A stretch of 64,000 nt of DNA, from NCBI GenBank assembly GCA_022616275.1, contig JAKEFB010000104.1:1-64000 (forward strand). The letters run 5' to 3'. The translations under genes and the position numbers were made by a program. This DNA comes from Chloroflexota bacterium (GTDB lineage Bacteria; Chloroflexota; Anaerolineae; Promineifilales; Promineifilaceae). The notes beneath the pieces are model-generated. The model saw only the letters and a list, made by a program, of their open reading frames with translations. It had not been told where the DNA came from and did no database searches. Positions 50,524-63,533 of this stretch are shown here, in pieces (position 1 is the first letter of the stretch; every line of letters starts with the position of its first letter).

Positions 50524-52362
50524 GTGTCTATCCCCTTAAAACAATATTGGGAGCTATTAATTGACTACCTCCGGCCGCAGCGCGGCCGCGTCCTGCTCCT
50601 GGCCATCCTCCTCTTCAGCAACATTGGCCTGCAACTCGCCAACCCCCAGATCATCCGCCGCTTCCTCGACCTGGCCCTGGCCGGCCGCGGCGCCGGCCAA
50701 CTGGCGGCCATGGCCCTGCTCTTCATCGCTGTCGCCCTCGTCCAGCAAATCGCCGCTGTTGCCGCCACCTACCTCGGCGAAAACGTCAGTTGGACCGCCA
50801 CCAACTGGCTACGCGACGACCTGGCCCGCCACTGCCTCTACCTCGACATGGCCTTTCATAACGAGCGCACCCCCGGCGAAATGATCGAGCGCATTGACGG
50901 CGACGTCAACGCCCTCTCCACCTTCTTTTCCCAATTTGTCCTCCAAATCCTGGGCAACGGCCTCCTGCTCCTGGGCGTTCTCATTCTCCTCTTCCGCGAA
51001 GACGTGTACGCCGGCGCGGCCATCACCCTCTTCGTCGTCCTGACCCTGGCCGTCATCAACCGGCTGCGCAACGTTGCCGTGCCCTACTGGCAGCAGTCCC
51101 GCGAGGCCAGCGCCCGCATTTTTGGCTTCCTCGAGGAGCGGCTGGCCGGCACAGAAGACATTCGTGCCAGCGGGGCCAAAGCCTATACCCTGCGCCGCTC
51201 CTTCGAGTTGTTGCGCCACTGGTGGCGCGTCTCCGTCTTCGCCCGCGTTGCCGGCGCCCTGATGATCAACACCGCCTGGACCCTCTTCGCCGTTGGCAAC
51301 GCCGTCGCCTTCCTCGTCGGGGCCGGCCTCTACCGCTCCGGCGCCCTGACCCTGGGCAGCGTTTACCTCCTCTTCCACTACACCAACATGCTCGGCCGCC
51401 CCATCGAGCGCATTTCCCAGGAAATGGAACAGTTGCAACAGGCCGGCGCCGGCATCGTCCGCATCCGCGAATTGTTCGCCGTCCGCAGCCGGCTGGTGGA
51501 AGCCCCTCCGGCCGCCCTATCTCAACCTCCCGGAGGTTCAAGCGATGAACATCGTTCCGATGTCCATCGCCGCGATGTCCATCGCCCACCTCCGGGAGGT
51601 TCGACTGAAGTCACCTTAGAAAACGTTTGCTTTGCCTACCCGGCCGCCGCCACTAACGGCGATTCCCCCGAGTATGTCTTGCAGGACGTCTCCTTCCAAC
51701 TGGAACCCGGCCGGGTCTTGGGCCTTCTCGGCCGCACCGGCAGCGGCAAGACCACTCTCACCCGCCTCCTCTTCCGGCTCTACGACCCCACCGGCGGCCG
51801 GATCCGCCTCGACGGCCGCGACCTGCGCGGCATGGCCACCGCCGAGTTGCGGCAACAGGTCGGCCTGGTCACCCAGAACGTCCAGCTCTTTCACGCCACC
51901 GTCCGCGACAACCTGACCTTCTTCGACCGCGCCATTCCCGACCAGACCATTCTGGATGTCATTCACGAGCTGGGCCTGGCCCGCTGGTACGAATCACTCG
52001 AAGAAGGGTTGGACACCGTCCTGGCCGCCGGGGGTGGGGGAGTATCGGCCGGCGAGGGCCAGTTGCTGGCCTTCACCCGCATCTTCCTCAAAGACCCCGG
52101 CCTGGTCATTCTCGACGAAGCCTCCTCCCGGCTCGACCCGGCTACCGAACAACTGATCGAGCGCGTCGTAGACCGGCTGCTGCAAAACCGCACCGCCATC
52201 ATCATCGCCCACCGCCTCAACACCGTCCAGCGCGCCGACGAAATTCTCATCCTCGAACGCGGCCGCATCCTGGAACACGGCTCCCGCCCCCGCCTGGCCG
52301 CCGACCCCAACTCCCGCTTCTACCACCTGCTGCAGACCGGCATCGAGGAGCTATTGGTATGA
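50524..52362 (+). CDS. ABC exporter half-transporter A (consensus ATPase site)
   Basis: 612 residues. Six-helix membrane domain (about 15-320) and nucleotide-binding domain (about 362-600): Walker [10 protein letters not shown] (~403), signature [11 protein letters not shown] (~506), Walker [12 protein letters not shown] with catalytic Glu, H-loop IIAHRLNTV. The linker (residues ~334-360, [20 protein letters not shown] then RPPPGGS) is encoded by an in-frame REP composite. AGGA precedes GTG 50524; the ATG at 50522 is out of frame. It pairs with the next gene (ATGA overlap) as a heterodimer exporting drugs, lipids or peptides. Confidence 0.9.
51524..51601. repeat. REP composite inside ABC exporter coding sequence
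   Basis: 78 nt (26 codons): outer AACCTCCCGGAGGTT (51524-51538) and CACCTCCGGGAGGTT (51587-51601), with several GCGATG/CATCGC words between them. It is in frame and without stops. Confidence 0.88.
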
Positions 52363-55073: not shown

Positions 55074-55162
55074 TGACAGGATAATGACCGCGCCACACCA
55101 ATACGTACTGGATGTCAAACAGGCTATTTGTTAAATGATCCAACTTGGGGGAATCGAGGGAC

Positions 55163-58003
55163 ATGCCGCTGCCAGATGAAGCGGTCACCCGCCGTGACTT
55201 AATTGACCCGGCCCTGGCCAAAGCCGGTTGGGACGTCAACGACAAGGTCCAGGTGGGGATTGAGATCCCGGTGGACGGTTCCGACCCCCAATTGTGGGCG
55301 CAACTGGCCCCCCAACTCCGGGCTATGCGCGACCCAGGCGGGGGATATACGGCCGACCTGCCCCCGGGCGTTGCCGATTACCTGCTTTACCACGAGACAG
55401 GGGAAGTGCTGGCCGTCGTCGAAGCCAAGAAGCTGGCCGTTGACCCTATCAAAGCCGAAGCCCAGGCCGAGTATTACATCAATGAAATCGGCAGGTGGCC
55501 GACCCAGACCTTTCAGCCGTTTGCCTTTATGACTAACGGCGAGCGCATCCGTTTCTGGGACATCGGCCGGGCCAACCCCCGCGACGTGGCCGGCTTCTTC
55601 ACCCTGGACGATCTGAAAAACCTGCTGTACATCCGCGAAAAGCAAAAGCCCCTGGCCACGGCGGCCATCAAGCCGGAGATTGCCGGCCGGCTGTACCAGA
55701 TTGAGGCCATCCGGGCCGTGCTCGAACGCTTTGACGTTGCCAAAAAACGGCGGGCTTTGTTAGTGATGGCCACCGGCACCGGCAAGACCCGTGTGGCCAT
55801 GTCCCTGGCTGACATCTTCATCCAGACCAACCAGGCCCGCAAGATTCTCTTTGTCGCCGACCGCGACGTCCTGGTCAAGCAGGCCCTGGCCGCCTTCCAG
55901 AAGTTCATTCCCGCCGAGCCAGGCACGCGGATTCACACCCACCACGTCGAAGTGGAAAAGCAACAACGCTTATTTGCCGCCACGTTACAGACCTTGAGTA
56001 ACTGCTTCCGCCAGTTTTCCCCGGCTTTCTTCGACCTGATTATCTTCGACGAGTCGCACCGCTCCATCTTTAACAAGTTTGGCGAGATCCTTAATTACTT
56101 TGACGCTCGGATGATCGGCCTGACGGCTACGCCGGCCAACTTCATAGACCGCAACACCTTTCTGCTCTTTGAGCACCCCGAAGAACGCCCTACCTTCCTC
56201 TACACCTACGAAGAAGCCATTCGGGAAGGCTACCTGGTGGATTACGCCTCCTACCAGGCCCAAACGCGCTTTCAGCATTTCGGCATTAAGTGGCTGGAGC
56301 TGGACGAAGCCGCCCGGAACCAGCTTCTTGAAGAAGGACTTGATCCCGATAGCATCAACTTTGAGGGAACGGATTTGGAGAAGGAGGTCAGCAACAAAGA
56401 CACCATCCGCAGGCAGTGGGACGAGATTCTACAGGTAGCCTATTCCGACCGGTCGGGGCAAAAGATTGGCAAGACCATTGTCTTTGCCATGAGCCAGCAG
56501 CACGCCCGGCGCTTGCTTGAGGTTTTTAAAGAAGAATATCCCCAGTGGCCGGGGCTGGCCCGCGTCATTACCCACGAAACCGAATACAAGGGTAAGCTCA
56601 TTGAACAGTTCAAAAACGAAGACCTTCCCCGCATTGCCATTTCGGTAGATATGCTCGACACCGGCGTGGACGTGCCGGCCGTCGTCAACCTGGTCTTTAT
56701 GAAGCAGGTCTACTCCTACATTAAATTGCAGCAGATGCTCGGCCGCGGTACCCGGCCGTTTGACACCGTGCCCGAAGAGCAACATTACCTGCTGCCCAAC
56801 GGCCAAAAGCACGACTTCAAAATCATAGACTTCTGGGACAACGACTTTAACAAAGACCCCCGGCACGTCGAGCCGGCGCCCACCACCCCGGTCCTGGCCA
56901 CCATCTTCAACACCCGCCTCAAGCTGCTGGAAGCCTACCTGGACCAGGGAGCCCAGGGCGAGGCCCGCCGGGTAATGGCCGCGCTACGGGAACAAATGGC
57001 TTTGATTCCGCTCGATTCCTTTAGCGTGAAATCAAGGTTGCCGGCCGCCATGAAGGAAGCCTGGCAAGATGATTACTGGCGCTACGTCACCCAACGACAG
57101 ATTGACGATTTGCGCCTGCACGTCGCTCCGTTGCTGCGTTTTGCCCCCAGCGGCGACGTCGAGGCGGCCACGTTCACCAGCAAGATAGAAAGGCTGAAGC
57201 TACAAATGGCCACCGGCCAGAACCCGCGAGCCACCGTACACTCCTTGAGGGAGGACGCCGGCCGCTTGAAGGACGAGGTCTTGACCGCCGAACAGCGGGC
57301 CGCCCGTGACTTCATTTTGAGCGGCGACCTGCTATCCGCCAGCCCCGCCAGGCTCGACGAACTGACCGCCCAACTGGCCGGGCAGATGGGCAAGCGCGCC
57401 AAACGCCAGGCCGGCCCCTTGCTGCTGGATTTGCCCGACGAAATGCTGTCGGGCGGCTACGTCTTCCTCTGGGAGCGCAACCGGCCCATTTACGAGCAGG
57501 AATACCGCGACCTCATTGACGCCCGCCTGGTTGACCTCATTGACCACCCGGTGATTGCTGCCATTGAACGGGGGGAGACGGTCACAGATGCTCAATTGTT
57601 GGATTTAGAGCGGGAAATGCGCCGGCAACTGGGCGGCAACGATCTCGGCCTGAACGAAGAAAAAATCCGCCGCGCCTACAAGGTCGAGGTAGACAGCTTC
57701 CTGGCCTTTATGCGCCACCAATTCGAGCTGGACGGCCTGCCCAACTACGCCGACATCGTCACCCGCCACTTTGACGAATTTGCCCGCACCCATCACCTCA
57801 ACGCCACGCAGACCAACTTCTTGCGCACCATTCGCTCCCAATTCTTGAAGCGGCGCAAACTGCGCCTGGCCGACCTTTACGACGAACCCTTTACCCGCTT
57901 TGGCGCCGACGCCGCCGACCGCCTCTTCACCCCGGACCAGCTCCAGGAAATTATGCTACTGACCCAAACCCTGGTAATCCTCCCGGAGGCTTCCCCAAGT
58001 TAG
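55163..58003 (+). CDS. hsdR: Type I restriction enzyme R subunit (HsdR)
   Basis: 946 residues. PD-(D/E)xK nuclease: D72, E87-A-K89 (ADYLLYHETG...VEAKK). SF2 translocase: ATGTGKT (203-209), DESH (296-299), and motif VI QMLGRGTRPFD. C-terminal EcoEI_R-type helical domain. It cuts unmodified DNA far from the recognition site after ATP-driven translocation, in complex with HsdM2S. ATG 55163 with GAGGG upstream is chosen over TTG 55145. The last residues (ILPEASPS) are encoded by a REP arm. A REP cluster separates it from hsdM. Confidence 0.95.
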   Translation: MPLPDEAVTRRDLIDPALAKAGWDVNDKVQVGIEIPVDGSDPQLWAQLAPQLRAMRDPGGGYTADLPPGVADYLLYHETGEVLAVVEAKKLAVDPIKAEAQAEYYINEIGRWPTQTFQPFAFMTNGERIRFWDIGRANPRDVAGFFTLDDLKNLLYIREKQKPLATAAIKPEIAGRLYQIEAIRAVLERFDVAKKRRALLVMATGTGKTRVAMSLADIFIQTNQARKILFVADRDVLVKQALAAFQKFIPAEPGTRIHTHHVEVEKQQRLFAATLQTLSNCFRQFSPAFFDLIIFDESHRSIFNKFGEILNYFDARMIGLTATPANFIDRNTFLLFEHPEERPTFLYTYEEAIREGYLVDYASYQAQTRFQHFGIKWLELDEAARNQLLEEGLDPDSINFEGTDLEKEVSNKDTIRRQWDEILQVAYSDRSGQKIGKTIVFAMSQQHARRLLEVFKEEYPQWPGLARVITHETEYKGKLIEQFKNEDLPRIAISVDMLDTGVDVPAVVNLVFMKQVYSYIKLQQMLGRGTRPFDTVPEEQHYLLPNGQKHDFKIIDFWDNDFNKDPRHVEPAPTTPVLATIFNTRLKLLEAYLDQGAQGEARRVMAALREQMALIPLDSFSVKSRLPAAMKEAWQDDYWRYVTQRQIDDLRLHVAPLLRFAPSGDVEAATFTSKIERLKLQMATGQNPRATVHSLREDAGRLKDEVLTAEQRAARDFILSGDLLSASPARLDELTAQLAGQMGKRAKRQAGPLLLDLPDEMLSGGYVFLWERNRPIYEQEYRDLIDARLVDLIDHPVIAAIERGETVTDAQLLDLEREMRRQLGGNDLGLNEEKIRRAYKVEVDSFLAFMRHQFELDGLPNYADIVTRHFDEFARTHHLNATQTNFLRTIRSQFLKRRKLRLADLYDEPFTRFGADAADRLFTPDQLQEIMLLTQTLVILPEASPS

Positions 58004-58132
58004 AGATCCTCCCGGAGGTTCGAGCGGCGATCCTCCCGGAGGTTCCGAACCTCCGGGAGGATGCCACCAAGCTTAATCCTCCCGGAGGCTTTCCCAGGAG
58101 ACTATCTCCTCTGAGAGAGCCTCCGGGAGGAT
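57977..58132. repeat. REP cluster between hsdR and hsdM
   Basis: Arms at 57977-57992 and 58006-58020; perfect 15-bp hairpin 58030-58062 (ATCCTCCCGGAGGTT-CCG-complement); larger hairpin 58076-58132 with arms ATCCTCCCGGAGGCT / AGCCTCCGGGAGGAT. Together about 156 bp with six arms, the first inside hsdR. Confidence 0.92.
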
Positions 58133-58156: not shown

Positions 58157-59866
58157 ATGCTAACCGACACCAGATTAAAATCACAAGTTGACCGCCTGTG
58201 GGACATGTTTTGGACCGGCGGCCTGACCAACCCCCTCGACGCCATCGAGCAATTTTCCTACCTGCTCTTCTTGAAGCGGCTCGACGACCGCGAAAAACAG
58301 CGCCAGGCCCAGGCCACCCGCCGCGGCCGCCCCTACACCCCCCAGCTCGACGAAGCGCTGCGCTGGGACACCTGGACGCGGCTGCCGGCCGACAAAGCCC
58401 TGAAGCACCTCAAAGAAGTCGTCTTCCCCCGCATGCGCCAGTTGGGCGGCGAAGGCAGCTCCTTTCAGGAGCAGATGCGCACCGCCGAGTGCAAAATCAA
58501 CAAGCCCAACCTGCTCATTGAAGCCACCAAGCTCATTGACGCCATGCAAATTGGGCAGCAGCAACAGGACGTCCAGGGCGATTTATACGAATACCTCCTC
58601 AGCCACCTCAACACCGCCGGCCGCAACGGCCAGTTCCGCACCCCTCGCCACATTATCCGCATGATGGTCCAGATGGTGGACCCCCAGCCGCTGGAGCGGA
58701 TTGGCGATTTGGCCGCCGGCACGGCCGGCTTCCTGGTCAACGCCTACCAGCACATCCTCGAACAACACACCTCCCCGGACATCCTGCACTACGACGCCGA
58801 TGGCTGGCCCCACAACTTGATTGGCGACCGGTTGAGCGACGCAGAACGGGAACACCTGCACACCCAGGCCTTACGAGGCTACGACAACGATTCCGGCATG
58901 ACCATGCTGCGCATCGGCTCCATGAACCTCATGCTCCACGGCGTCGAAGCGCCCCGCTTTTTCTACGCCGACACCCTTTCCAAAGAGTACGACGAGCCCA
59001 ACGACTACGAAGTCATTCTCATGAACCCGCCCTTTAAGGGCGCGGTGGACAAAGACACCATTCACCCCAACCTGCCCCACGACACCACCAAGTCGGAGCT
59101 GCTCTTCTTGCATCGCATTTTGCGGGCGCTGGACATGGGCGGCCGCTGCGCCGTCATCGTCCCCGACGGCGTCTTGTTCGGCAGCAGCCGGGCCCACGTA
59201 GACGTTCGCCGCAAGCTGGTCGAAGAAAACGGCCTCTGGGGCGTGGTCAGCATGCCCAGCGGGGTGTTCAAACCCTACGCCGGGGTCAGCACCGCCGTCT
59301 TGATCTTTGTCAAAGGCGGCACAACGGACAATATCTGGTTTTACGACATGGCCCACGACGGCTTCTCCCTCGACGACAAGCGCACCAGGGTGCCTGAGAA
59401 CGACATCCCCGACCTCCTCGCCTGCTGGCGCAATCGCCACGACTCAACCTTTGCCGCCGAACGGGCGGCCAGGCTGGCCGCCTTAAAAGCGGAGCTAGAA
59501 CCGCTACAGGCCCAACGGCGGCTGCTGGAGAGAGAAATGAACCGGCTGACCTTTGAAGCGGCCATTGCCGCCGACGGTACGGCCGTCGCCGCTAACAGGA
59601 CTCTGGACGCAGTAAAGGCGGAAATGGAAGCGCTGCAGATCCGCATAGCCCCGCTGAAAACGCAAATAGACCGGTTAGGACGGCAATTTTGGGTGACAAA
59701 GAAGCAGGTGCGGGCCAACAAATACGACCTGAGCGCCAGCCGTTACAGGCAGATGGAGCAGGAACCCGTCTTTTACGAAGACCCACGGGTGACAATGGAG
59801 AGGTTGCTGACACTTGAGCAGGTTTTGGCTAACGAAGTGAAACAAATCAGAGAGTTGATTTCGTGA
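58157..59866 (+). CDS. hsdM: Type I restriction-modification DNA methyltransferase (HsdM)
   Basis: 569 residues. HsdM_N helical domain (about 5-140) and N6-adenine methyltransferase domain: SAM motif I DLAAGTAGF (184-192) and catalytic NPPF (290-293). A C-terminal coiled coil (about 435-505) contacts HsdS. It protects host DNA and forms M2S. TTAGGAGAG lies just before the ATG. Its TGA overlaps the GTG of hsdS. Confidence 0.95.
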   Translation: MLTDTRLKSQVDRLWDMFWTGGLTNPLDAIEQFSYLLFLKRLDDREKQRQAQATRRGRPYTPQLDEALRWDTWTRLPADKALKHLKEVVFPRMRQLGGEGSSFQEQMRTAECKINKPNLLIEATKLIDAMQIGQQQQDVQGDLYEYLLSHLNTAGRNGQFRTPRHIIRMMVQMVDPQPLERIGDLAAGTAGFLVNAYQHILEQHTSPDILHYDADGWPHNLIGDRLSDAEREHLHTQALRGYDNDSGMTMLRIGSMNLMLHGVEAPRFFYADTLSKEYDEPNDYEVILMNPPFKGAVDKDTIHPNLPHDTTKSELLFLHRILRALDMGGRCAVIVPDGVLFGSSRAHVDVRRKLVEENGLWGVVSMPSGVFKPYAGVSTAVLIFVKGGTTDNIWFYDMAHDGFSLDDKRTRVPENDIPDLLACWRNRHDSTFAAERAARLAALKAELEPLQAQRRLLEREMNRLTFEAAIAADGTAVAANRTLDAVKAEMEALQIRIAPLKTQIDRLGRQFWVTKKQVRANKYDLSASRYRQMEQEPVFYEDPRVTMERLLTLEQVLANEVKQIRELIS

Positions 59867-60966
59867 TAGTCGAGTTTGTAACGTTAGGCTCGCTGTGCGA
59901 GTTCACGTATGGGGATGGATTGCCAGAGGGTGACCGACATGGCGGTACGTTCCCTGTTTACGGCTCCAACGGTATTGTAGGCTGGCATGATAAAGGAATT
60001 ACACAGGCGCCAGTAATAGTAATTGGCCGAAAGGGCTCCATTGGTGAGGTACACTACAGCGACGAACCAAGTTGGCCCATTGATACAACATATTACGTTG
60101 ACCGCACAAAAGTCCCCTGTGACCTGAAATGGCTTTACTACATTTTGCTTGCTCTCGACTTGACTAAGCTCAACAAAGCAGCGGCAGTTCCAGGACTAAA
60201 CAGAAATGATGCCTACGAAAAATTGGTTCCGTTGCCACAATTGGCGGATCAGAAGCGGATTGCGGGGATACTGGCGAGGGCGGACCGGTTGCGCCAGTTG
60301 CGCCGCTACGCCCTGCAACTCAGCGACACCTACCTGCAATCCATCTTCCTCCAAATGTTCGGCGACCCGATGACTAATCCGATGGGGTGGGAGGAATCTA
60401 CTTTGGGTGATCTGATCATATCAGCTAAAGACGGCCCTCATGTTAGCCCAAGTTACACTGAATCAGGCATACCATTTCTTTCAACCAGAAACGTAAGACC
60501 TGGTGAAATCATTTGGGATGATTTGAAATATATCTCACTGAAAGATGCCCAGGTTCAGTGGAAAAAAGTCAAACCTGAAATGGGTGACATCCTATACACC
60601 AAAGGCGGAACCACAGGCCTGGCAAAAGCCATTGATTTTGACATAGAGATAGCTGTTTGGGTCCATATAGCAGTGTTAAAGCTAAAACGTAATCTGGTTG
60701 ATCCAATCTGGCTTGAAAGTATGCTGAATAGCGAGTACTGCTATCGTCAGTCTCAAGAACTAACAAAAGGAATTGTTAATCGTGATTTAGGCTTGAAACG
60801 AATGCCTAAAATCAAGATGTATCATCCCCCCTTGTACTTACAACAGAAGTTTGCTCAAGCTGTGAAACAGTTTACCCGGCTAGAGGCACAACAGCGCGAA
60901 GCGGCCCGGCAAGCAGACCACCTCTTTGACACCCTCCTCCACCGCGCCTTTAGCGGCGAGCTATGA
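59863..60966 (+). CDS. hsdS: Type I restriction specificity subunit (HsdS)
   Basis: 367 residues: TRD1 (about 1-125), central conserved helix (LADQKRIAGILARADRLRQL, about 128-160), TRD2 (about 165-325), distal conserved helix with AARQADHLFDTLLHRAFSGEL. Each TRD reads half of a bipartite site. The two TRD-coding blocks (about 59.88-60.24 and 60.39-60.87 kb) are visibly more AT-rich than the conserved helices, a sign of exchange by transfer. Starts at GTG 59863, overlapping the hsdM stop. Confidence 0.93.
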   Translation: MIVEFVTLGSLCEFTYGDGLPEGDRHGGTFPVYGSNGIVGWHDKGITQAPVIVIGRKGSIGEVHYSDEPSWPIDTTYYVDRTKVPCDLKWLYYILLALDLTKLNKAAAVPGLNRNDAYEKLVPLPQLADQKRIAGILARADRLRQLRRYALQLSDTYLQSIFLQMFGDPMTNPMGWEESTLGDLIISAKDGPHVSPSYTESGIPFLSTRNVRPGEIIWDDLKYISLKDAQVQWKKVKPEMGDILYTKGGTTGLAKAIDFDIEIAVWVHIAVLKLKRNLVDPIWLESMLNSEYCYRQSQELTKGIVNRDLGLKRMPKIKMYHPPLYLQQKFAQAVKQFTRLEAQQREAARQADHLFDTLLHRAFSGEL

Positions 60967-61053
60967 AGCATCAAAGCGAGTAATCAATCTCCCAGATTCC
61001 AAGAGATTAGAGGGTTGATTATTTTTATTGGGTGAACGAACCGAGGTAAGCTA

Positions 61054-62574
61054 ATGTTAGACGCCATTGGAGAATTGCTAGAAAGGCAAGGGCTACTCCT
61101 TTGTGTTAAGCGAACAGAAACGGTGCGCGATGCGCTGGTCAAGATGGTTGACAAAGATTTCAGCCAGCTTCCAATTGTGGACGAAGGCGGCTACCTTACC
61201 GGCATCATTTCTGAACAAACGATTACCCGCCACTACTACCATTTAAATGACATGGTTTCTCTGCTTGACCTGACTGTTGATCATTGTCAGGAAGAAGCTG
61301 TTACCCTCTCGGAGGAAGATAGCAGCCTCTTTGCCATATTGGAACGCCTGGAAAGTAATTATGCCGTCGTGATTACTTCAGAACGCAAGCCTATAGGCAT
61401 CGTCACTGACTATGATACGACCCACTTCTTCAGGGCCTGGTCAGAAGGTCTGATGCGCGTGCAAAGCATTGAACTTACACTCAGAAAATATATTGAGGAT
61501 GTTTTGACCACCGAGCAGGCCATGACGGCCGCTCTCTTACAGGCGTTAGGCGCTGACAAAACAGATCCGTCAAAACCGCGCAAAACTTACGACGACCTGA
61601 CCTTCTATGAACACATCCAGCTTATGACTCACGAGAAAGTCTGGCCAAAGTTTGAACCATACCTGACTCCCAAGAAACTGTTTAGCCAACTGATGGAGGC
61701 CGTCAATCAAGTACGCAACCAGCTTGCTCACTTTCGGGGCCGGCTAGATTCGATCCAATACGACGCGCTCAAAAGGTCACAGCGCTGGTTAGCTACACGA
61801 CCCAAAGTCCCGCAAGCAATGAAAACCGTCCCACCCTTTGATGTCCCTGTTCCTCCTTCAGCAGCCACAGGGAAGTATGCGCCATTACAAGACTGGCTGG
61901 CAGCGCAGGCCAGGCAGATTACTCCTGGATATGATATTCAACGCACCTTTAACGACATTCAAGCATTAATAGGCGATCAACTGCCAGATGCAGCACGTGA
62001 GCACCGCGCCTGGTGGGCCAATGATGCCACTTCTCCCTACCGCCAGTCAATGGCCTGGCTACGCGCGGGCTGGAAGGTTGAAAACGTAGATTTTGCGGCC
62101 GAAACCGTTGTCTTCCGGCGCACTGACACGGTTCTATACCAGCTCTTTTTTGCCGATTTACTGGAACGGCTTAAAGCAGAGCATCCTGGTATTACCAGGG
62201 CCGCCAGAACGTATCCCCAGAACTTTTGGAGCTTTGGCGCTGGGCGTTCCGGCTTTTTTTTCACCTGGACATTTACCGAAAATCACTATCTGCGTGTTTC
62301 ACTCGACATAGCCACTGTTGATCACGACACGAACAAGAACGTTTTCGCCTTGCTTCAATCACAAAAGGCAGAGATCGAACGACAGATCGGCGCTGAACTT
62401 CAATGGGAGCGACTTGACGAGCACCGTTCATCGCGTATTTCTCTGGCTATTAAGGCGCGCATAAACGATTCACCTGAGCGTTTAGAGTTAGCTAAAGAGT
62501 GGTGTCTCAACACAACCATTAGATTTGTAGACGTATTTCAACCCAAGCTTAAGGAACTGCACTTTGAGCAATGA
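61054..62574 (+). CDS. CBS pair + HEPN-like + DUF4268 protein, putative defence effector
   Basis: 506 residues. Order: two CBS motifs (about 12-60 and 82-128; FSQLPIVDEGGYLTGIISE, YAVVITSERKPIGIVTD), which bind adenosyl nucleotides. A helical domain follows (about 138-248) with R221-N-Q-L-A-H226, a HEPN-type RNxxxH motif. Then a module LPDAAREHRAWWAND...AWLRAGWKV (about 308-345) seen in restriction-associated proteins, and a DUF4268 domain (about 358-500; IGAELQWERLDEHRSSRI). No membrane segment. Position after hsdS, and lower GC than neighbours, suggest a defence role: nucleotide-sensed RNase is the inference. GAGG precedes the ATG. Confidence 0.8.
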   Translation: MLDAIGELLERQGLLLCVKRTETVRDALVKMVDKDFSQLPIVDEGGYLTGIISEQTITRHYYHLNDMVSLLDLTVDHCQEEAVTLSEEDSSLFAILERLESNYAVVITSERKPIGIVTDYDTTHFFRAWSEGLMRVQSIELTLRKYIEDVLTTEQAMTAALLQALGADKTDPSKPRKTYDDLTFYEHIQLMTHEKVWPKFEPYLTPKKLFSQLMEAVNQVRNQLAHFRGRLDSIQYDALKRSQRWLATRPKVPQAMKTVPPFDVPVPPSAATGKYAPLQDWLAAQARQITPGYDIQRTFNDIQALIGDQLPDAAREHRAWWANDATSPYRQSMAWLRAGWKVENVDFAAETVVFRRTDTVLYQLFFADLLERLKAEHPGITRAARTYPQNFWSFGAGRSGFFFTWTFTENHYLRVSLDIATVDHDTNKNVFALLQSQKAEIERQIGAELQWERLDEHRSSRISLAIKARINDSPERLELAKEWCLNTTIRFVDVFQPKLKELHFEQ

Positions 62575-62879
62575 AGGAAGGCCGGTGGAAAAGAAAAAGC
62601 CCCATCACTGCTACCATGTATCCTGAGTTGAGACTCAGGACTTCGCAGTGGACAGGGCTTTTCCTTACTGAAGAATAGTATAGCAGATATTGCCCCTTGA
62701 TCCTCTTGAAGGTTCCAGCGATGAAATCGCCGATCTTCTGAAAGATGCGGGTGACACACTCTATGAGACTCCGCCACCCTCCCGGAGGTTCGGAACCTCC
62801 GGGAGGGTCCACCGACGACCTACCCTCCCAAACGTTCCTAACCTTCGGGAGAATACACGAACAGTTCAGGCGAAACACC
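62575..62879. other. Intergenic block of stem-loops before RAYT
   Basis: 305 bases with no gene. Contents from left: the long stem-loop at 62595-62662, a degenerate REP composite at 62700-62747 (the GCGATGAAATCGC core is kept, arms mutated), a perfect REP at 62776-62808 and a degenerate REP at about 62822-62854. Confidence 0.65.
62595..62662. repeat. Long imperfect stem-loop
   Basis: Outer arms AAAAGCCC...CACTGC (62595-62611) and GCAGTG...GGGCTTTT (62645-62662); inner perfect stem TCCTGAGT / ACTCAGGA (62621-62640) with TGAG loop. Could be a terminator for the CBS-HEPN gene, a small RNA, or an insertion-sequence end. Confidence 0.6.
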
Positions 62880-63461
62880 ATGCCACGACGCAAGAACCCT
62901 TTCACCACCGGCCAGTTCTACCACATCTACAACCGTGGCACCGGCCGCGAACGCATTTTCTTTAACGCCGGCAACTACGAATACTGCCTGCGTCTGGTCA
63001 AAAAATACTGCGCCAAATACGACATTGCCGTGATCGCCTACTGCCTCATGCCCAACCACTACCATTTCTTACTACGTCAAGATGGGGAAGTCCCGGTCAC
63101 TAAATTCATTGGCGTGCTATTCAACGCCTATTCCCAGGCCCTCAACAACCAGCAGGAACGAACAGGAACCCTATTTGAAGGGCGGTTCAAAGATGTCCAT
63201 GTGGATCGAGAGCCTTACCTGCTTCACCTGTGCCGCTACATCCACGGCAACCCGGTCAAAGCGGGCCTGGTGACAACCCTGGAGGAATGGCCCTACTCCA
63301 ACTATCATGAGTGGATAAAGGCCCGGCCGGGGTCGTTGGTAGATCACGAATTTATAGACGCCTACTTCCCCAACCGCCAAGAATACACCACCTTCATCCT
63401 GGACTACCTGCACGGCCTGGACCAATTACCAGACGGCATCAACGCCTACTTGTTTGTCTAG
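62880..63461 (+). CDS. REP-associated tyrosine transposase (RAYT, Y1/HUH)
   Basis: 193 residues. Opening RRKNPFTTGQFYHIYNRGTG; HUH motif CLMPNHYHFLL; FEGRFKDVHVD; and a candidate catalytic Tyr in EEWPYSNYHEWI. These are hallmarks of TnpA_REP, a single-strand endonuclease that recognises REP hairpins. ATG 62880 gives the family N-terminus; the open frame extends upstream to 62745 through a REP and is not coding. Gene looks intact, so it may be active. Confidence 0.9.
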   Translation: MPRRKNPFTTGQFYHIYNRGTGRERIFFNAGNYEYCLRLVKKYCAKYDIAVIAYCLMPNHYHFLLRQDGEVPVTKFIGVLFNAYSQALNNQQERTGTLFEGRFKDVHVDREPYLLHLCRYIHGNPVKAGLVTTLEEWPYSNYHEWIKARPGSLVDHEFIDAYFPNRQEYTTFILDYLHGLDQLPDGINAYLFV

Positions 63462-63476: not shown

Positions 63477-63506
63477 ATCCTCCCGGTTCGGAACCTCCGG
63501 GAGGAT
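63477..63506. repeat. Right REP of the RAYT locus
   Basis: See the mobile element entry. It ends 27 nt before the next gene's ATG. Confidence 0.85.
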
Positions 63507-63533
63507 GGCGTGCGGGATCTAAAGGAGGTCATC

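Follow-up and report, generated by a model that had tools for sequence, protein, structure and literature searches.

A CBS-HEPN protein with a DUF7662-DUF4268 tail recurs in DNA-modification loci and is a candidate second-line effector beside a type I restriction system

The window analysed here is a 64,000-nucleotide stretch of the Chloroflexota bacterium assembly GCA_022616275.1 (contig JAKEFB010000104.1, positions 1 to 64,000 of the forward strand). It encodes a 506-residue protein in which a CBS pair, a HEPN-like helical domain, DUF7662 and DUF4268 follow one another. Directly upstream on the same strand lie hsdR, hsdM and hsdS, which look like a complete type I set, in agreement with the initial annotation of this DNA. 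Relatives of the protein are embedded again and again in modification loci. We lean towards the view that it is a latent, dimeric, CBS-gated HEPN endoribonuclease that would back up the adjacent type I system as its second line, much as PrrC does.

The domain chain is evident from profile matches. Pfam places CBS in two stretches (57.9 bits, cut-off 24), DUF7662 at residues 275-356 (52.1 bits, cut-off 26) and DUF4268 at residues 362-497 (78 bits, cut-off 27). HEPN_Swt1 (PF18731) matches residues 140-246 with 27.7 bits, which passes its gathering cut-off of 27.5 as a borderline match. The initial annotation had read a CBS pair, an RNxxxH motif at R221-H226 and DUF4268 from this open reading frame; Pfam and the family alignment bear this out and add DUF7662, which it had missed.

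The family is real, extends beyond chance and is not a one-off, because 29 proteins, a paralogue from the same genome among them, can be aligned along most of their sequence and none departs from the motif. These rows comprise 23 proteins from loci found in a scan of a genome collection (53 loci, in 23 of which a single open frame covers most of the protein), the window protein, its paralogue and four others; L068 ends before DUF4268 and L050 lacks a start. R221, N222 and H226 are identical in 29/29 rows and are kept in L147, a member found later. The second HEPN signature is almost as constant, with E140 in 29/29 and K or R at position 144 in 28/29. Both agree with the HEPN motifs Rx4-6H and Ex3[KR] as given in the account of the superfamily (PMC3710099). 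Within DUF7662, R318, W320, W321, N323, W335 and W340 are identical in every row. The same is true of T118 and D121 in the second CBS domain, which we take to be an adenosyl-ligand signature. Position 36 is F in 16 rows, including the window protein, Y in 12 and a gap in one.

The assignment of the helical domain to HEPN is supported by the borderline Pfam match together with the invariant Rx4H and Ex3[KR] and a profile match to DS-11-like HEPN domains. When the HEPN part of the family was compared with that of three DS-11-like proteins, the probability was 97.8 (E 7e-13), against 0.1 to 1.1 in three negative comparisons. The HEPN-like domain proposed in the initial annotation is thus supported. 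AlphaFold2 predicts helices in this region at high confidence; its full-length model has a mean predicted local distance difference test (pLDDT) of 89.3 and a predicted template modelling score (pTM) of 0.66, and a model of residues 126-506 alone reaches 90.9 and 0.71 (alignments confined to the window protein and proteins of its related loci, 25 rows with L068 and 24 rows without it). By its predicted structure, DUF4268 most resembles type III secretion chaperones, YbjN and the C-terminal domain of MotA. Foldseek with residues 126-506 gave no match at E <= 0.001, and a sequence search of the PDB with a profile of the same residues returned nothing under E 0.17.

The nearest characterised protein is DS-11, a single-protein anti-phage system with a CBS-HEPN core published in 2026 (PMC13092281). 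As described in the DefensePredictor paper, DS-11 loses defence when its HEPN catalytic residues are mutated or when the CBS-domain substitution Y157A is made, and its suspected ligand is an adenine derivative said there not yet to have been found (PMC13092281). CBS-HEPN fusions had been noted as early as 2013 (PMC3710099). The initial annotation's statement that it knew of no characterised protein with this domain order is therefore not supported as regards the CBS-HEPN core. Residues 15-246 of the window protein match the NCBIfam DS-11 model NF053863 continuously over positions 85-305 (E 4e-33). The score of 114.7 bits falls short of the curated equivalog cut-off of 260, which rules out labelling the protein DS-11 outright; an E. 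coli protein run as a positive control scored 404.9 bits, and the record from which it comes gave two further matches, of 24.6 and 19.4 bits.

A 365-residue E. coli relative, whose gene is present in 127 of 5,426 E. coli genomes searched, is taken to be DS-11 or a near-identical protein, because its residue 157 is tyrosine, matching Y157 of DS-11, and because of its NCBI name: two of fifteen rows among the matches listed read 'CBS domain-containing anti-phage protein'. Its Y157 aligns with F36 of the window protein, so that the aromatic residue essential in DS-11 is present with a conservative change, and its RNDVMH aligns with RNQLAH. The two proteins are alike in having a CBS pair followed by HEPN, the RNxxxH motif, an aromatic residue at the Y157 position and the T and D of the second CBS domain. 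They differ at both ends. The E. coli protein starts with some 125 residues ahead of its CBS pair and ends with HEPN, whereas the window protein lacks the N-terminal region (model positions 1-84; the match begins at position 85, residue 15) and adds DUF7662-DUF4268. There is no sign that this tail is a moved copy of the DS-11 N-terminus, since profile comparisons of that N-terminus with DUF7662 and DUF4268 gave probabilities of 0.2 and 0.1.

The company that the family keeps carries the rest of the argument. A type I, type III, PglX or DrmMI-like methyltransferase gene occurs in 14 of 34 family loci (561 kb). The same counting found one in 1/20 other DUF4268 loci (45 DUF4268 places were listed, 4 of them in the family, and 20 of the other 41 were taken with flanks), in 0/24 DUF7662-only loci and in 1/3 DS-11-like loci. 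Fisher tests gave p = 0.003 against the 20 DUF4268 loci, 1.4e-5 against the pooled 44 and, for HsdM alone (7/34 versus 1/44), 0.011; these counts and p values are rough, because the seed proteins were family-derived and the near-copy loci L070/L071 and L064/L045 form non-independent pairs. From 165 N6_Mtase matches in 184.3 Mb (30 genomes, rounded sizes), about 0.5 would be expected in 33 loci, compared with the seven that have HsdM (six family loci and the window), by a Poisson estimate that treats one domain at its genome-wide mean density and ignores the clustering of defence genes. Conservation of RNxxxH in 29/29 rows, together with methyltransferase genes at 14/34 loci, contradicts the combination of a variable motif and no defence association that the initial annotation had named as counting against its own proposal.

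More telling than these counts is the tightness of gene spacing. At three loci (L046, L066 and L072) the family gene stands between two hsdM genes, with upstream gaps of 4, 1 and 3 bp and downstream overlaps of 4 bp. The L073 gene overlaps hsdM by 8 bp, and that of L067 starts 35 bp after a type III methyltransferase gene. L046 is the locus of the paralogue in the window's own genome (P0002, 581 residues, with CBS, DUF7662 and DUF4268 by Pfam and RNILAH at the HEPN position), and its genes run hsdM, paralogue, hsdM, hsdS, hsdR. At L070, from Verrucomicrobiaceae, the gene lies 13 and 12 bp from its neighbours within a run (L070:950-16789) of DpdE/DrmD-like helicase, DrmMI-like methylase, OLD-like ATPase, CBS-HEPN protein and DruE-like helicase. 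Three of four neighbours at L071, also from Verrucomicrobiaceae, cluster with those of L070, and across the two loci the spacing to both neighbours is 6-13 bp. L064 and L045 lie near DrmMI.

Two further features of these loci can be recorded. The composite run of L070 and L071 mixes parts of named systems, the families having been searched for L070. GmrSD_N (L067:852-2630, Pfam) or HEC-05 (L066:13157-14932 and L147:10393-12504, PADLOC) recurs near the family gene; one of these loci is type I, and the other two carry a type III methyltransferase.

The closest relatives do not share one host system. In the tree, in which the bootstrap is not fully settled, the window protein pairs with L073 (support 99/95) and next with L074 (99/100); L147, a later find that is absent from the tree, has 51% identity to the window protein. 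L073 lies in a type I locus, as the window protein does, L074 in a BREX locus with PglX, PglZ and BrxL just upstream, and L147 beside a type III methyltransferase and a HEC-05-like gene. It follows from these three loci that closely related effectors serve, or at least accompany, different modification systems.

How the protein would work can be outlined from these parts. At rest, the HEPN sites of the putative dimer would be kept inactive by an adenine-type ligand bound to the CBS pair. The DUF7662-DUF4268 tail may have the same effect, in addition or instead, by touching the modification complex or DNA that carries the correct modification. If phage infection then shifted the ligand pool or put the restriction complex out of action, HEPN would be released, and R221 and H226 would cut RNA, so that translation and phage growth stop.

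Several observations weigh against a tie to the modification system, or against the domain assignment on which it builds. No such methyltransferase gene was seen in the flanking DNA examined, some of it short, at 20/34 family loci, so the coupling is not obligatory; ten of these 20 are in records titled cyanobacteria, and one of them, L068, has hsdR and hsdS. The association with defence loci expected from the initial annotation is thus recurrent, in restriction and BREX-type loci, and not universal. A type III methyltransferase lies near one of the three DS-11-like loci, so the modification tie may not be special to the CBS-HEPN-DUF7662-DUF4268 architecture, and the seeding of the neighbourhood count with proteins from family loci is a bias in the family's favour. 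In the window itself an 87 bp spacer separates the gene from hsdS, in contrast to the overlaps seen among relatives. The HEPN Pfam match is only 0.2 bits above its cut-off, and the other five members scanned had no HEPN_Swt1 match at E 0.01. The DS-11 model also matches below its cut-off in 13/14 control genomes, presumably through CBS domains. The fold lists, which CBS and DUF4268 matches filled, named no solved HEPN structure; for residues 126-506 there was none among the 50 best rows of each list, a result that does not exclude a HEPN fold.

Some of these points could be explained if the protein were a free-standing, DS-11-like abortive-infection protein, in which CBS senses a nucleotide change and frees the HEPN RNase with no tie to a restriction complex, and adjacency reflects clustering or co-movement of defence genes. 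We regard this as unlikely, though it deserves serious attention. DS-11 is itself described as a one-protein system (PMC13092281), and the features annotated up to 6 kb around the E. coli gene include an integrase but no restriction gene. The 20 family loci in which no methyltransferase gene was seen fit the same view, as does the patchy spread of the family (at E 1e-40, 5/249 genomes of the class, counting that of the window, and 0/13 other genomes of the window's taxonomic family). Against it, the three loci where the gene stands between two hsdM genes and overlaps the downstream one and the 6-13 bp spacing at L070/L071 are tighter than clustering in islands needs, and other DUF4268 proteins are seldom near methyltransferases (1/20).

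Alternatively, the tail may be the infection sensor, serving interchangeable effectors and recognizing either a phage protein or DNA in its modified or unmodified state, with CBS mainly for dimerisation and a nucleotide check and HEPN as the killing part. We consider this improbable. DUF4268 is also joined to TIR, nuclease and GmrSD partners, and whether it is a shared sensor can be tested. A bolder proposal, which we offer as a long shot, is that the protein is a portable guard of the methylation cofactor state. Its CBS pair would read S-adenosylmethionine (SAM) or a related adenosyl compound, and a phage SAM lyase or other anti-restriction activity that collapses methylation would free the HEPN RNase. 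A ligand of this type is proposed because it is the one thing that the host systems of the gene, of type I, type III, BREX and DISARM-like kinds, have in common. If true, the protein would be a general, system-independent counter to anti-restriction and would not belong to a single operon.

Regulation of partner proteins is a common role of CBS domains, which counts for a last and very improbable reading, in which HEPN is non-catalytic (RNA-binding or structural) and the protein regulates the expression or activity of the restriction system. Some HEPN domains are indeed thought to be non-catalytic, but those so described lack the motif (PMC3710099), whereas R221, N222 and H226 are invariant in the family, and DS-11 is reported to require its HEPN catalytic residues (PMC13092281).

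The family is distributed widely and unevenly. A match at E 1e-10 was found in 42 of 400 genomes drawn from the phylum, the window's included, many of them to a single domain. Record titles of relatives name Anaerolineae, other Chloroflexota, cyanobacteria, Verrucomicrobia and one member of Myxococcales, and Anabaena sp. 90 has a plasmid copy. Searches of viral contigs with the protein (P0001) and with the alignment (A2) found no relative. Pfam scans of six of the 29 members, with the result for L064 taken from its duplicate L044, found DUF7662 and DUF4268 in all six and CBS in five, the exception being the N-terminally short L050. Duplicates (L044 of L064, L041 of L076) were excluded from the counts. 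The locus count includes the truncated or split L038, L076, L079 and L080 as well as the shorter L050 and L068, only the last two of which entered the alignment.

The tail also occurs apart from CBS-HEPN. L077 (L077:9242-10741) and L078, from Ktedonobacter, have the tail only and are not among the family loci; some 250 residues that by themselves match no Pfam or PADLOC family are fused there to DUF7662-DUF4268, maybe as another effector type. TIR and DUF4268 are joined in a single 646-residue protein at L039:5699-7636, a possible TIR effector with the same sensor domain. DUF7662-like stretches also lie within archaeal proteins of 752 to 1437 residues from Thermococci (L083, L084 and L092).

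Table 1. Features of the window at and upstream of the CBS-HEPN gene
Feature	Position	Strand	Basis
hsdR, type I restriction subunit	55145..58003	+	open reading frame, Pfam, NCBIfam, PADLOC
hsdM, type I methyltransferase subunit	58157..59866	+	open reading frame, Pfam, PADLOC PDLC03021 (524.9 bits)
hsdS, specificity subunit, two Methylase_S stretches	59863..60966	+	open reading frame, Pfam, PADLOC
Spacer from hsdS to the CBS-HEPN gene, 87 bp; possible 12-13 bp hairpin, then T run	60967..61053	+	z -0.39
CBS-CBS-HEPN-DUF7662-DUF4268 protein, 506 residues	61054..62574	+	intact open reading frame, ATG start
CBS pair, about residues 4-127 (F36 at 61159-61161, T118 at 61405-61407, D121 at 61414-61416)	61063..61434	+	
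HEPN-like helical domain, about residues 128-247, with E140-x3-R144	61435..61794	+	Pfam, alignment, model, profile comparison
R221-N-Q-L-A-H226, predicted RNase active-site motif	61714..61731	+	alignment
DUF7662, residues 275-356, predicted H-E-H-H-H-H-E-E	61876..62121	+	Pfam, alignment, model
DUF4268, about residues 359-501	62128..62556	+	Pfam, model, fold comparison

The spacer upstream of the gene was considered as a terminator or attenuator and rejected: its hairpin is no more stable than shuffled sequences, and a terminator scan gave no match there. A promoter scan of the region found 2 against 2.1 expected. A REP-like palindrome (CTCCCGGAGGTTCGGAACCTCCGGGAG) occurs at 58033-58059, between hsdR and hsdM, and at 62779-62805, with a half copy at 63485-63510. 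It has 7 exact copies in the genome, against 0 for a reversed control, and the genome has 6 Y1_Tnp matches. One Y1_Tnp gene, ending at 63461, adjoins the palindrome and is presumably RAYT-like. Farther upstream, an ABC transporter reading frame (50524..52362) holds an odd 27-residue stretch at 51523-51603 that looks like an in-frame insertion of a palindromic repeat.

Defence by CBS-HEPN proteins is already known, and HEPN beside restriction genes is a known theme. HEPN-type endoribonucleases are described as second-layer backup effectors in BREX and BREX-related loci (PMC12839542), and a term search of the main text of that paper found 0 occurrences of CBS, DUF4268 or DUF7662. As far as searches of the open-licence PMC literature go, two things are new: a protein with the order CBS-HEPN-DUF7662-DUF4268, and the repeated presence of its gene within loci of type I, type III, BREX and DISARM-like systems. 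The same searches found no paper on DUF7662, and the portions of papers retrieved on DUF4268 give it no function. A predicted RNase that differs from PrrC and is probably nucleotide-gated recurs in loci of these four classes, and the closest relatives of the window protein lie in three of them. It can therefore be tested whether many modification systems are guarded by a single effector module and which ligand this module reads; the pattern suggests a backup weapon, common to these systems, against viruses that get past the first line.

Among known systems, PDC-S11 of PADLOC resembles the window protein in its C-terminal DUF4268; all four PDC-S11 matches fall within residues 358-503, with no full-length match. 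The PDC-S11 and DUF4268 nucleases examined have a nuclease-like N-terminus, which we take to be a PD-(D/E)XK-like motif, instead of CBS-HEPN. PrrC, the textbook RNase guard of a restriction enzyme, to our knowledge lacks DUF7662-DUF4268. It is described as a HEPN anticodon nuclease within a type I operon (PMC3874165, PMC3710099). Its regulatory part is an ABC ATPase (PMC3710099), whereas the window protein has CBS, with no ATPase family among its Pfam matches at E 1 or better. In both PrrC/EcoprrI and the window, the gene of a HEPN-motif RNase, predicted in the window's case, is tied to type I genes and would be under nucleotide-responsive regulation (PMC3710099 for EcoprrI), and the linkage to hsd known from PrrC is present here, with hsdRMS immediately upstream of the window gene and relatives inside hsd operons.
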